Source: Geodermatophilus telluris
GTDB taxonomy: Bacteria; Actinomycetota; Actinomycetes; Mycobacteriales; Geodermatophilaceae
Length of the DNA: 64,000 nucleotides
Direction: 5' to 3'
Assembly: GCF_900102745.1 (NCBI RefSeq)
Contig: NZ_FMZF01000001.1
Coordinates: forward strand, 1 to 64,000
Part shown: piece by piece, positions 40,975 through 49,368 of the stretch
How the letters are laid out: every line of letters starts with the position of its first letter
Position numbering within the stretch: position 1 is the stretch's first letter
Notes under the pieces: model-generated
Told to the model about the DNA's origin: nothing
Database searches by the model: none
The model's input: the letters and a program-made list of their open reading frames with translations, nothing else
Position numbers and translations under genes: made by a program

Positions 40975-41868
40975 TCAGGCGATGTCGGCGAGCTTGGTGC
41001 GCAGGTGCAGGACCGCCTTGGTGTGCAGCTGGCAGATCCGGCTCTCGGTGACCCCGAGGACGCGGCCGATGTCGGCCAGCGTCAGGCCCTCGAAGTAGTA
41101 GAGGCTGACGACGACCTTCTCCCGCTCGGGCAGCTGCTCCACGGCGCGGGCGAGCAGCTGGCGGGCCTCCCCGTGCTCGGCCACCGCCTGCGGGTCGGCG
41201 GCGTTGACGTCCTGCAGGGTGTCGACCAGGCGGGGGGCGCCGCCGTCGTCGTCGGTGAGCAGCTCGTCGAGGGCGACCACGTTGACCAGCGAGAGCTGGC
41301 CGAGGAACTTGCGGACCTCCTCGACGTCCATGTCCATCTCCGCGGCCACCTCCTCCTCGGTGGGGCTGCGCCGCAGCCGGCTCTCGAGGGCGGCGACGGT
41401 GCGCTCGAACTGGCGGGCCTTCATCCGCACCGACCGCGGGATCCAGTCGGTGCTGCGGAGCTCGTCGATGATCGCGCCGCGGATGCGGGCCATCGCGTAG
41501 CTCTCGAACTTGACCTCGCGCGAGGGCTGGTAGCGGGTGATCGCGTCGATGAGCCCGAACGTGCCGTAGGAGACGAGGTCGGCCTGCTCGACGTGCGCCG
41601 GCAGCCCGCTGCCGACCCGGCCGGCGACGTACTTCACCAGCGGCGCGTAGTGCAGGATCAACCGGTCGCGCAGGGTCGGTGCCCGCTCGGTGACGTACTG
41701 CGCCCAGAGCTCGGCGATCGCTGCGTCGGCGTCCTCCTCGGACTCGCCGCCGATCCGGTGGATGGTCGCCTCGGGCACGGTGTGCACTCCCGCTCTCTGG
41801 TGGGCTCTGGGCCTCGCGGTGAACGCCGGCTCGGCGGCCGGCAGGGTCGGTGTGGGCGGCGTGGTCAT
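40975..41868 (-). CDS. whiG: WhiG/FliA-family RNA polymerase sigma factor
   Basis: 297 residues, ATG at 41866-41868 overlapping the xerC stop. Region 2 ([18 protein letters not shown] and [28 protein letters not shown] in two pieces), region 3, and region 4 ([37 protein letters not shown]) match Streptomyces WhiG closely from memory. WhiG directs aerial-hypha-to-spore genes in Streptomyces; its relatives (FliA) run flagellar genes. Recognition of TAAA-N15-GCCGATAA-type promoters is expected. A matching promoter lies at 48207-48234. The first 40 residues are variable. Confidence 0.9.
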
Positions 41869-46144: not shown

Positions 46145-46465
46145 TCAGGTGATGCGGGGGCCGTCGGGCAGCTCGAGGTCGGGCTTGTCCAGCTCCTCGA
46201 CGTTGACGTCCTTGAACGTCAGGACGCGGACGTTGCGGACGAAGCGGGCCGGCCGGTACATGTCCCAGACCCAGGCGTCGGACAGCTTGAGCTCGAAGAA
46301 CACCTCGCCACCCGCCTCGCGCACCTGCAGGTCGACGGAGTTGGCCAGGTAGAAGCGCCGCTCGGTCTCCACCACGTAGGTGAACTGGCGGACGATGTCC
46401 CGGTACTCGCGATAGAGCTGCAGCTCCATCTCGGTCTCGTACTTCTCCAGGTCCTCGGTGCTCAT
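46145..46465 (-). CDS. DUF2469 protein
   Basis: 106 residues, ATG at 46463-46465 overlapping the rnhB stop. Opens MSTEDLEKYETEMELQLYRE, with VRQFTYVVETERRFYLAN and VWDMYRP; a highly conserved actinobacterial family (mycobacterial Rv2901c). Function unknown; always next to rnhB. Confidence 0.92.
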   Translation of the reverse strand: MSTEDLEKYETEMELQLYREYRDIVRQFTYVVETERRFYLANSVDLQVREAGGEVFFELKLSDAWVWDMYRPARFVRNVRVLTFKDVNVEELDKPDLELPDGPRIT

Positions 46466-47256
46466 CGCGGTTCTCCGGAGACAGTGGGCATGCCCCCATC
46501 ATCGACCATGCCGCCGGGACCGGTCAGCTGGAGCTCCCGACCGGCGTGTGCGTGCCGCGCGCGGACGACGTTGACGAAGCGCGACCGGTGCTCGGGGCAG
46601 GGGCCGTGACGCTCCAGGGCGGCGGTGTGCGCCTCGGTCGTGTAGCCCTTGTGCACCGCGAAGTCGTACTGCGGCCAGCGCTCGTGCAGGTCGAGCATGA
46701 TGCGGTCCCGGGTGACCTTGGCCAGCACCGACGCCGCGGCGACGCAGGCGGCCACCCGGTCGCCCTTCCACACGGCGAGGGTGGGTACGCCCAGGCCGGG
46801 GACGGCGAAGCCGTCGGTGAGCACGTAGTCGGCGGCGGGGTCGAGGGTGCTCACCGCGCGGCGCAGCGCCTCGAGGTTGGTCACGTGCATGCCGCGCGCG
46901 TCGAGCTCGGCGACCGGGATGGCCACCACGGACCACGACACCGCCCGCTCGACGACCTCGTCGTAGACCCGGTCGCGGGCGGCGGCGGTGAGCAGCTTGG
47001 AGTCGGCCAGCCCGGGGACGCGCCCGCGGCGCCCGGCGGGCAGCACGCAGGCGGCGGCCACCAGCGGTCCGGCGCAGGCGCCCCGGCCGGCCTCGTCGGC
47101 ACCGGCCACGGCGAGGAAGCCGCGCCGGCGCAGCGAGCGCTCCATGTCCCACAGCGCGTCGTCGGGGCGGTCCCCGGCGGTCGGCGGGGCGGGGCGGGGG
47201 GTGCGGGCGGTCGGGACCGCGGCCACCCGGTGCGGGGAGGGAAGAGGGCCGGCCAT
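46462..47256 (-). CDS. rnhB: Ribonuclease HII
   Basis: 264 residues, ATG at 47254-47256; an internal ATG at residue 38 would remove a nonconserved Pro-rich start. Cleaves RNA in RNA-DNA hybrids and single ribonucleotides. Catalytic D54-E55 in GADEAGRG, a third Asp in YVLTDGF and a fourth in RDRIM. Confidence 0.95.
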   Translation of the reverse strand: MAGPLPSPHRVAAVPTARTPRPAPPTAGDRPDDALWDMERSLRRRGFLAVAGADEAGRGACAGPLVAAACVLPAGRRGRVPGLADSKLLTAAARDRVYDEVVERAVSWSVVAIPVAELDARGMHVTNLEALRRAVSTLDPAADYVLTDGFAVPGLGVPTLAVWKGDRVAACVAAASVLAKVTRDRIMLDLHERWPQYDFAVHKGYTTEAHTAALERHGPCPEHRSRFVNVVRARHAHAGRELQLTGPGGMVDDGGMPTVSGEPR

Positions 47257-47442: not shown

Positions 47443-48165
47443 TCAGACCTCCGCGGAGGCCGGGGCCGGGGTGGCCAGGCCGTGGGACCCGCAGGTGCAG
47501 GCGCCGCCGCCCCGGGCGGAGAGGACCAGGGAGACCGCGTGCGCGCGGTCGCGGGCACCGAGCTTGCGCAGGATGGCCTTCACGTGCGACTTGACGGTGT
47601 CCTCGCTGATGAACAGGTTGCGGCCGATCTGCCGGTTCGACTGGCCCTGGATGAGCTCGTCGAGCACGTCGGACTCACGGCGGGTCAGCGGGACCTCGGG
47701 GGTGAGCGGCTTGCTCACCGGGACGGCGCTGGGCTCGACGCGGCGGATCTGCGGGTCGACGACGGTGCGGCCGGCGCGGGCGGCCAGGATGGCCCAGCCC
47801 AGCAGGGTGGGCGAGGTGTTGAGCAGCAGGTAGCCGCGGACGCCGGCGGCGACGGCCTCGTTGACCACGGCCGGGTCCTCGGAGGTGGCCAGGGCCACGA
47901 CCGCCACCCGAGGGAAGCGGCGGCGCAGGTCGCGGACGACGTTGAGCGTGGTGGCCCGGCCAGCACCCATCTCGACGACGACGGCGTCGGGGCGGGCGGT
48001 CTCCACCAGGGTCAGCGCCCGGCGCAGCTCGCCCGGGGTGCCCACCGACTGCATGCCGGCGGTCTCGTTGATCATGCTGACCAGACCGCGGCGCAGGACG
48101 GGGGCGTCGGCGAGGAGGAGGACGCGGGTGACGCCTCGGGCGGCGCTCGCCATGGGTGCGGACAC
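47443..48165 (-). CDS. Orphan atypical response regulator, BldM/WhiI-like (LuxR-type HTH)
   Basis: 240 residues, GTG at 48163-48165 with GGAG nine bases upstream. Receiver-like domain (about 12-125) has one of the acidic-pocket residues (D20), but the phospho-acceptor Asp is E65 (VVVEMG) and the conserved Lys is N116 (YLLLNTS), so phosphorylation is unlikely. The HTH (about 158-217) with SNRQIGRNLFISEDTVKSH and KLGARDRAHAV closely resembles BldM and WhiI of Streptomyces from memory. WhiI is also a receiver lacking these residues and is a WhiG target. Unusual C-terminal CTCGSH (CxCxxH) motif. No kinase gene nearby. Gene bounded by hairpins and preceded by a WhiG-type promoter. Confidence 0.85.
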   Translation of the reverse strand: MSAPMASAARGVTRVLLLADAPVLRRGLVSMINETAGMQSVGTPGELRRALTLVETARPDAVVVEMGAGRATTLNVVRDLRRRFPRVAVVALATSEDPAVVNEAVAAGVRGYLLLNTSPTLLGWAILAARAGRTVVDPQIRRVEPSAVPVSKPLTPEVPLTRRESDVLDELIQGQSNRQIGRNLFISEDTVKSHVKAILRKLGARDRAHAVSLVLSARGGGACTCGSHGLATPAPASAEV

Positions 48166-48206
48166 GACTTACTCCATTTCGGTGGACCGAGTTGCTCTCG
48201 AACACC

Positions 48207-48234
48207 TCATCGGAGTGGATTGGCACGGTCTTTA
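48207..48234 (-). promoter_or_regulatory. WhiG/FliA-type promoter of the orphan regulator
   Basis: Minus strand: TAAA (48231-48234), 16-bp spacer, TCCGATGA (48207-48214). The known consensus is TAAA-N15-GCCGATAA, matched at 4/4 and 6/8. The predicted start site (about 48200) gives a 35-nt leader containing the GGAG ribosome site. Confidence 0.6.
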
Positions 48235-48441: not shown

Positions 48442-49368
48442 TCAGCGGCCGCCGCGACGGCGGGACCGACGCCGGCGCAGCCAGGCCGTCACGGGCAGCG
48501 CACCGACCACCCCGGCGGCCAGGGGCAGCGCCGAGGCCACCGGCGTCGCGGCGCCCGCCGTGCCCGTCCCGGGGAGCGCAGCGGCCTCGGTGCCCTGGAT
48601 GTCCGGGTCGTCGAGGGGGCCGAAACGGTCGATCGGCCAGACGATGAGCGCCGCCTTGCCGATGACGTCGTCGACGGCGATGGTGCCGCTGTAGCGGTCG
48701 GTGACGTGCGACCGCGAGTCGGCCGAGGCCGACCGGTGGTCACCCATCACCCACAGTCGCCCCTCGGGGACGGTCACCGCGTCGAACTCGCGGCTCTCCT
48801 GCGGGGTGTTCTCGAAGATGTAGGGCTCGTCCAGCGGCTGCCCGTCGACGGTCACCCGCCCCTCGGCGTCGCAGCACTCGACGGTCTGCCCGCCGGTCGC
48901 GATGACCCGCTTGACGTAGTCGTCCTCGCTCGGCGGCGCGACGCCCACCGTCCGGCCCAGCCACAGCAGCGCGCCGGTGAACCAGTTGGAGGGGTCCTGG
49001 ACCTCGACCTCGGGCACCCAGGTGTCCGGCCCCTGGAACACCACGATGTCACCGGGCTCGGGCTCGCCGAACCAGTACGGGATCTTGTTGACCAGCACGC
49101 GGTCGCCGGTGCACCCGGGACACCCGTGCAGCGTCTGCTCCATCGACCCCGACGGGATGAAGAAGGCCTGCGCGAAGAAGGTCTTGACGACCAGGGCGAG
49201 CACGAAGGCCACCAGCAGCAGCACGGGCAGTTCCCGCAGCAGCGAGGTCTTGTGCTCGGGCCGCTCACGGCGCCGGCGGCCCGGGCGGCGGCCGGCCTCG
49301 GCGGCTCCGGGCTGGGGCTCGTCCCCCGGGACGACGTCGGCGGGCCCCCCGGACCGGTCGCTGCTCAT
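48442..49368 (-). CDS. lepB: Signal peptidase I
   Basis: 308 residues, ATG at 49366-49368. Catalytic S75 in SGSMEQTL and K153 in YVKRVIATGG; box E is GDHRSASADSR. One N-terminal transmembrane helix after a basic cytosolic tail. A CxxC (83, 86) follows the active serine. The C-terminus has a second hydrophobic segment (about 270-295) and an Arg-rich end, unusual for plain SPase I but seen in some actinobacteria. Confidence 0.96.
   Translation of the reverse strand: MSSDRSGGPADVVPGDEPQPGAAEAGRRPGRRRRERPEHKTSLLRELPVLLLVAFVLALVVKTFFAQAFFIPSGSMEQTLHGCPGCTGDRVLVNKIPYWFGEPEPGDIVVFQGPDTWVPEVEVQDPSNWFTGALLWLGRTVGVAPPSEDDYVKRVIATGGQTVECCDAEGRVTVDGQPLDEPYIFENTPQESREFDAVTVPEGRLWVMGDHRSASADSRSHVTDRYSGTIAVDDVIGKAALIVWPIDRFGPLDDPDIQGTEAAALPGTGTAGAATPVASALPLAAGVVGALPVTAWLRRRRSRRRGGR

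Follow-up and report, generated by a model that had tools for sequence, protein, structure and literature searches.

WhiG governs sporulation in Streptomyces, which are non-motile, and in Rubrobacter it governs pili. In Streptomyces, WhiG drives whiI, the product of which has a degenerate receiver and forms a heterodimer with BldM (PMC4125116). FliA/SigD/WhiG flagellar promoters are characterised by a TAAA -35 and a GCCGATAA -10 element, as quoted in PMC8325347, in which RsiG, the c-di-GMP-dependent anti-sigma factor, is reported in 16/16 Geodermatophilaceae species. No paper on WhiG targets in Geodermatophilaceae was found in the open-licence literature. The locus described here, from a member of this family, resembles the Streptomyces WhiG-whiI pair in that a predicted WhiG-class promoter lies directly ahead of an orphan regulator whose phosphorylation pocket is degenerate and in that BldM-like proteins also occur in Geodermatophilaceae, the gene being seen in relatives. 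It differs in that the helix-turn-helix (HTH) of the regulator is BldM-like, lepB and rnhB flank the gene, Geodermatophilaceae carry flagellin genes and the promoter takes the form TCAAG-N15-NCCGATGG. With FliA/SigD/WhiG promoters it has in common the AA core of the -35, CCGAT in the -10 and a fixed spacing, a build found also at flagellar operons; as in the RsiG-WhiG system described in PMC8325347, WhiG is present.

The promoter motif and its conservation

The window, the whole 64-kb stretch of DNA analysed (75.9% GC), contains the following features.

48230 to 48234, minus strand: -35 element TAAAG; among named orthologue loci (best 80 of 166), 77 have TCAAG
48215 to 48229, minus strand: spacer of 15 nt, lacking TCACCC in the window; the BldM-type half-site TCACCC is present in most orthologues
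48207 to 48214, minus strand: -10 element TCCGATGA; among the named loci (best 80 of 166), 56 have TCCGATGG
48197 to 48203, minus strand: predicted transcription start region, placed from the -10 position only
48172 to 48175, minus strand: ribosome-binding site GGAG, 6 nt 5' of the GTG
47443 to 48165, minus strand: orphan response regulator (Pfam Response_reg and GerE) with a degenerate receiver and a LuxR-type HTH nearest that of BldM
48442 to 49368, minus strand: lepB, signal peptidase I (Pfam PF10502), upstream neighbour
46462 to 47256, minus strand: rnhB, RNase HII (Pfam PF01351), downstream neighbour
40975 to 41868, minus strand: whiG, WhiG/FliA-class sigma factor (NCBIfam NF004935)

An earlier note on this DNA had proposed a WhiG/FliA-type promoter ahead of the regulator, and both reading frames on which it relied, 47443-48165 and 40975-41868, are as it described them. 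The motif is likewise in the place and orientation claimed, TAAAG, 15 nt and TCCGATGA being read on the minus strand from 48234 to 48207 with a 5' edge 69 bp ahead of the regulator GTG. The distance from the end of the -10 element to the GTG (48165) is 41 nt rather than the 35-40 bp given previously, and the ribosome-binding site for which room had been noted is present as GGAG. TAAA is as rare as had been supposed, since the promoter -35 is its single occurrence in the window with both strands counted, and TAAA-N13-17-NCCGATNA matches only this promoter in the 4.8 Mb genome, with 0 matches for the reversed-pattern control. Dinucleotide shuffles, generated by a shuffler accepting walks that cover >99.9%, contained the motif in 0/200 cases for the window and 1/5000 for the 300 bp upstream. 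The canonical form, TAAA-N14-17-GCCGATAA, has no match in the 64-kb window, the promoter differing from it by two -10 bases and by one additional spacer base. Within the window the site ranks third by a core matrix of flagellar promoters and fifth by an extended matrix, described below; thus, the motif alone would not single out the site, which is instead distinguished by its conservation.

Matches to the regulator at E<=1e-40 were obtained in 101 of 112 Geodermatophilaceae genomes. T(C/A)AAG-N15-N(C/T)CG(A/T)T is retained in 80/80 named loci (the best 80 of 166 relatives, all Geodermatophilaceae), in every case 38-44 bp ahead of the coding start. Only 3 of these best 80 of 166 carry TAAAG, the remainder having TCAAG, the TAAA by which the earlier note defined the -35 being a local variant. 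In a second set, composed of the 30 best matches and 40 loci hand-picked to span genera and second copies, and overlapping the named set in genomes, T(C/A)AAG-N15-N(C/T)CG occupies the same place in 69/70 loci, the window's own copy included; in the single miss, L057, the region ends at a contig end. The 100% conservation of TNAAG and CG in this set arises partly by construction, these letters being fixed by the search pattern, while the free letters A24 and T25 are conserved at 97% and 100%, respectively. Conservation upstream of orthologues, on which the earlier note had staked its proposal, is thus observed in both sets, and it makes the window motif a strong promoter prediction.

The closest named relatives listed are Geodermatophilus dictyosporus and G. 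tzadiensis, at 96% and 95% identity, respectively, a listing that may omit records very near the window's genome. Across the class, only 2 of 393 genomes match at E<=1e-40, a threshold which weaker orthologues may escape, and both are Geodermatophilaceae. The regulator is flanked by lepB and rnhB in 57/69 loci, the window's included. An additional regulator gene, located elsewhere than beside lepB/rnhB, occurs in many Modestobacter and some Blastococcus genomes (L043, L045-L049, L052-L056, L058-L066), and these copies are also preceded by TCAAG-N15-NYCGAT, with the -10 often reading GTCGAT.

The sigma factor reading frame scores 394.5 bits against the WhiG equivalog model NF004935, above the cut-off of 343, in agreement with its previous description as a WhiG homologue. 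The gap between whiG and the regulator is 5.6 kb, close to the 6 kb given earlier; however, this proximity, which had been offered as a sign of a circuit, is not evidence of a link because both are embedded in a housekeeping-gene block (reading frames assessed by eye).

A build in common with flagellar promoters

Flagellar genes were examined in 21 regions, the window's own genome and 20 chosen others. Gene names flbD, fliS, flgB, csrA, fliW and whiB-like are assigned here on the basis of sequence signatures. TCAA(G/C)-N15-(G/T)CCGT is found upstream of fliC in 21/21 regions, TCAAG-N15-(G/A)CCGA upstream of flbD in 16 of the 19 regions holding this gene, the three misses being Klenkia without a site of the exact form, and TCAA(G/C)-N15-GCCGATGA upstream of a flgB-like gene in 7/21 regions. 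Alignment of flagellin upstream DNA from 30 loci gives CTCAAG-N15-GCCGTAA. The regulator promoter has the -35, the exact spacing and the CCG core in common with the flagellin and flbD promoters and, as expected of the WhiG/FliA class, a FliA-type -35 and -10 precede the gene at fixed spacing. It does not carry the canonical TAAA-N15-GCCGATAA of the earlier note, from which the flagellar promoters of Geodermatophilaceae also depart; compared with that form, the spacer here is one base longer, the -35 is usually TCAAG and the -10 reads GCCGTAA or NCCGATGR.

The core matrix, of 12 columns, was trained only on 37 flagellar promoters (21 fliC, 16 flbD) and places the regulator site first of about 7,300 positions in 69/69 loci. 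With the extended matrix, whose 36 columns include a TTCG(C/G)C extension 5' of the flagellar -35s, the site is first in 42/69 loci and among the top three in 62/69, the window site scoring 7.5 against 18 to 40 for the training promoters. The extended flagellar context is therefore absent from the regulator promoter, which lacks both TTCG(C/G)C and the G ahead of CCG; in place of GCCG, its -10 has T or C as the first base or is GTCGAT.

Also observed in the flagellin mRNA leader, near the ribosome-binding site, was an inverted repeat of strong conservation, CCGCAGCACGGATGCAGCGG, whose loop contains GGA; it is seen at L095 and 29 other flagellin loci (L094-L123), the copy in the window's own genome lying at about 688930-688985 of G000:C3. 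This repeat looks like a CsrA site, and csrA- and fliW-like genes are seen nearby by eye.

In the 96 genomes with completeness of >=90% and contamination of <=5%, the regulator, WhiG and flagellin are each present in 92, with the same four (G070, G072, G073, G074) lacking all three. Flagellin (PF00669) occurs in 100/112 Geodermatophilaceae genomes. WhiG at E<=1e-40, a threshold that would miss diverged copies, gives a single match in 100 of the 101 genomes with one; in the remaining genome it is split into two fragments lying on separate contigs. For the 9 genomes of genera g5-g7, most of which are incomplete, neither the regulator nor flagellin is found and one genome contains a diverged WhiG (52% identity). 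The regulator thus co-occurs with flagellin and WhiG, as expected of a member of a flagellar regulon, through few independent events, and as few as one or two gains or losses may account for the pattern. Together with the promoter build, this co-occurrence supports the link to motility suggested in the earlier note.

Genome-wide, TCAAG-N15-NCCGATGR is found 369 times in 103 genomes of flagellated genera (reversed control, 13) and 10 times in 9 genomes of three non-flagellated genera (reversed control, 4). The reversed control underestimates the background because TCAAG and CCGAT arise frequently as in-frame pairs of codons, and the 10 matches in the 9 genomes of non-flagellated genera provide a better yardstick. 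In the window's own genome, TCAAG-N15/16-CCGAT has 22 matches compared with 6 in the reversed control, most within reading frames, so that a list of motif matches alone is a poor regulon list; TMAAG-N15-GCCGNAN has 2 matches, one of which is the flagellin promoter, compared with 3 in the control. The canonical TAAA-N15/16-GCCGATAA matches in 43 of the 393 class genomes, and in 0 of the two Geodermatophilaceae drawn; G453 is the only g36 (Streptomyces-like) genome listed with a canonical match, and this route to whiI gave nothing. Other occurrences in the window's genome include two adjacent, similar secreted-protein genes (L130; G000:C3:574374 and 575538), the first of which was tested and has no Pfam match, each with TCAAG-N15-(G)CCGATG shortly before its start, and a small GAF-domain protein (PF01590; L131; G000:C3:753131, minus strand) with TCAAG-N15-GCCGATCC 67 bp before its start. 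These are possible further WhiG targets.

The regulator protein and the half-site in its promoter

In 16/16 aligned orthologues, with the register set against BldM, A19 occupies the place of the acidic-pocket Asp, E65 that of the phospho-Asp and L, M or I115 that of the Lys. The regulator therefore has the WhiI trait of an orphan with a degenerate phosphorylation pocket, its neighbours being lepB and rnhB with no kinase. The labels Streptomyces, for genus g36, and BldM are assigned from sequence signatures, the latter backed by 100% identity among three g36 genomes. Such invariance of BldM is remarked upon in PMC4125116, in agreement with the label. In a comparison of 20 loci from four other-family genomes, the regulator HTH is closest to that of Streptomyces BldM (32/54 identical; score of 166 versus 138 for the next), and an HTH-only search returned BldM as best in both genomes searched; the receiver, in the same other-family comparison, is not nearest that of BldM. 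None of 30 further loci read by eye, from 74 matches listed, contained a receiver-degenerate relative, and WhiI was not located there. As a statement of homology, the term 'WhiI-like' in the earlier note is consequently not upheld, the HTH being nearest BldM in the Streptomyces-like genomes searched, among which WhiI itself was not located.

The regulator was also considered as the BldM orthologue and this assignment was rejected: it sits by lepB/rnhB with no divergent whiB-like gene, and another gene fits BldM. That gene, which is BldM-like, was seen in five relatives, where it diverges from a whiB-like gene just as its counterpart does in the Streptomyces-like genomes. Its product (L313, L314, L315, L286, L287) itself has a degenerate receiver without a phospho-Asp by alignment; in contrast, Streptomyces-like BldM does not show that degeneracy. 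The tail of the regulator C-terminal to the HTH (47443-47500 and orthologues) contains a conserved CxCGxH-like motif, with C223 and C225 invariant in 16/16 and with a possible role in metal binding or redox sensing.

In 57/80 named loci TCACCC falls within the spacer or the three leading -10 bases, and in 6/80 GGGTGA does (best 80 of 166); the half-site is found in 0/37 flagellar spacers. In three Klenkia loci the sequence GCACCCGCTCGGGTGA is one mismatch from the BldM box, TCACcCgnncGgGTGA as published (PMC4125116), and in a fourth Klenkia locus the box is changed symmetrically in both arms. The half-site has been lost from the window's clade, the window promoter included, with T(C/A)AAG and CCGAT retained. 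Its presence at the regulator promoter of most relatives, a likeness to the BldM system described in PMC4125116, suggests control by the regulator itself or by BldM. TCACCC...GGGTGA upstream of flbD/fliC was considered as a regulator target and rejected: by eye it belongs to terminator-like hairpins in several rows, and complete BldM boxes, allowing 2 or fewer mismatches, show no enrichment (0 in the window and 1 in the flagellar cluster, compared with 0-2 in shuffles).

Alternative readings and a possible WhiG circuit

We consider it likely that 48234-48207 serves the orphan regulator downstream as its promoter and is read by RNA polymerase with the WhiG encoded in the same window. The conserved block could instead be the promoter of another sigma factor, of housekeeping or ECF type, which only partly resembles WhiG promoters, as the missing extended flagellar -35 and the different first -10 base would allow; a GGAA...GTT arrangement can even be drawn by eye in some orthologues. 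However, rows from Klenkia and Modestobacter lose GGAA and GTT yet keep TCAAG and CGAT, and the spacing is exactly that of fliC and flbD, making this reading unlikely. A match by chance is hardly credible: the site departs from the canonical form in two -10 bases and in spacing, and the core matrix ranks it no higher than third in the window, but same-place conservation in 80/80 named loci (best 80 of 166) and the shuffles contradict such an origin.

Two further alternatives concern the role of the block. Vertical inheritance of a WhiG-to-WhiI circuit, with the regulator as the WhiI orthologue, would explain the like logic, in which an orphan regulator of degenerate receiver follows a WhiG-class promoter (PMC4125116), but is quite improbable given an HTH nearest BldM and the lack of receiver-degenerate proteins in the loci read, among which WhiI was not located. 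The half-sites in 57 of the best 80 of 166, their absence from the 37 flagellar spacers and the Klenkia boxes would also be expected if the block acted chiefly as an operator, bound by BldM or by the regulator itself, with the promoter elsewhere; we give this little credence, as the window's clade lacks the half-site yet keeps T(C/A)AAG and CCGAT.

Returning to transcription by WhiG, the best reading is that the regulator belongs to the WhiG/flagellar regulon, suggesting that WhiG switches on flagella and the regulator together in motile Geodermatophilaceae. WhiG would most likely be the flagellar sigma factor of the family because the flagellin, flbD and, where found, flgB promoters are of like build, TCAA(G/C)-N15-GCCG(AT/TA). 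The regulator would be made when flagella are made, via its WhiG-class promoter, and since the residues normally used for phosphorylation are missing from it, its activity is probably determined by how much of it is made under WhiG. The BldM-like HTH of the regulator probably recognises TCACCC-type half-sites and, as TCACCC lies within its own promoter in most relatives, feedback by the regulator itself or by BldM is suggested. The sequence itself shows the motif and its conservation, the common build, the co-occurrence, the degenerate receiver and the BldM-like HTH; dependence on WhiG, the feedback and its direction, and the downstream targets are inferred. The occurrence of RsiG throughout the Geodermatophilaceae species covered in PMC8325347 suggests that c-di-GMP may gate the circuit through RsiG; a motif scan for RsiG in the retrieved stretches gave one single-motif match in a window frame, judged spurious.

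More tentatively, and with considerable doubt, Geodermatophilaceae may possess a relay gated by c-di-GMP that parallels the one for sporulation in Streptomyces, and in which RsiG-restrained WhiG turns on flagella and, from promoters of one class, a phosphorylation-independent BldM-like regulator, the latter pairing or competing with BldM at TCACCC half-sites. A WhiG-class promoter common to flagellar genes and one atypical regulator would give a defined regulon open to test and add a second example in which WhiG feeds a response regulator that cannot be phosphorylated, and would bear on the conversion of a flagellar sigma factor into a developmental one. If the relay were true, the switch of cells between motile and developmental states would be made by a single sigma factor together with two atypical regulators.
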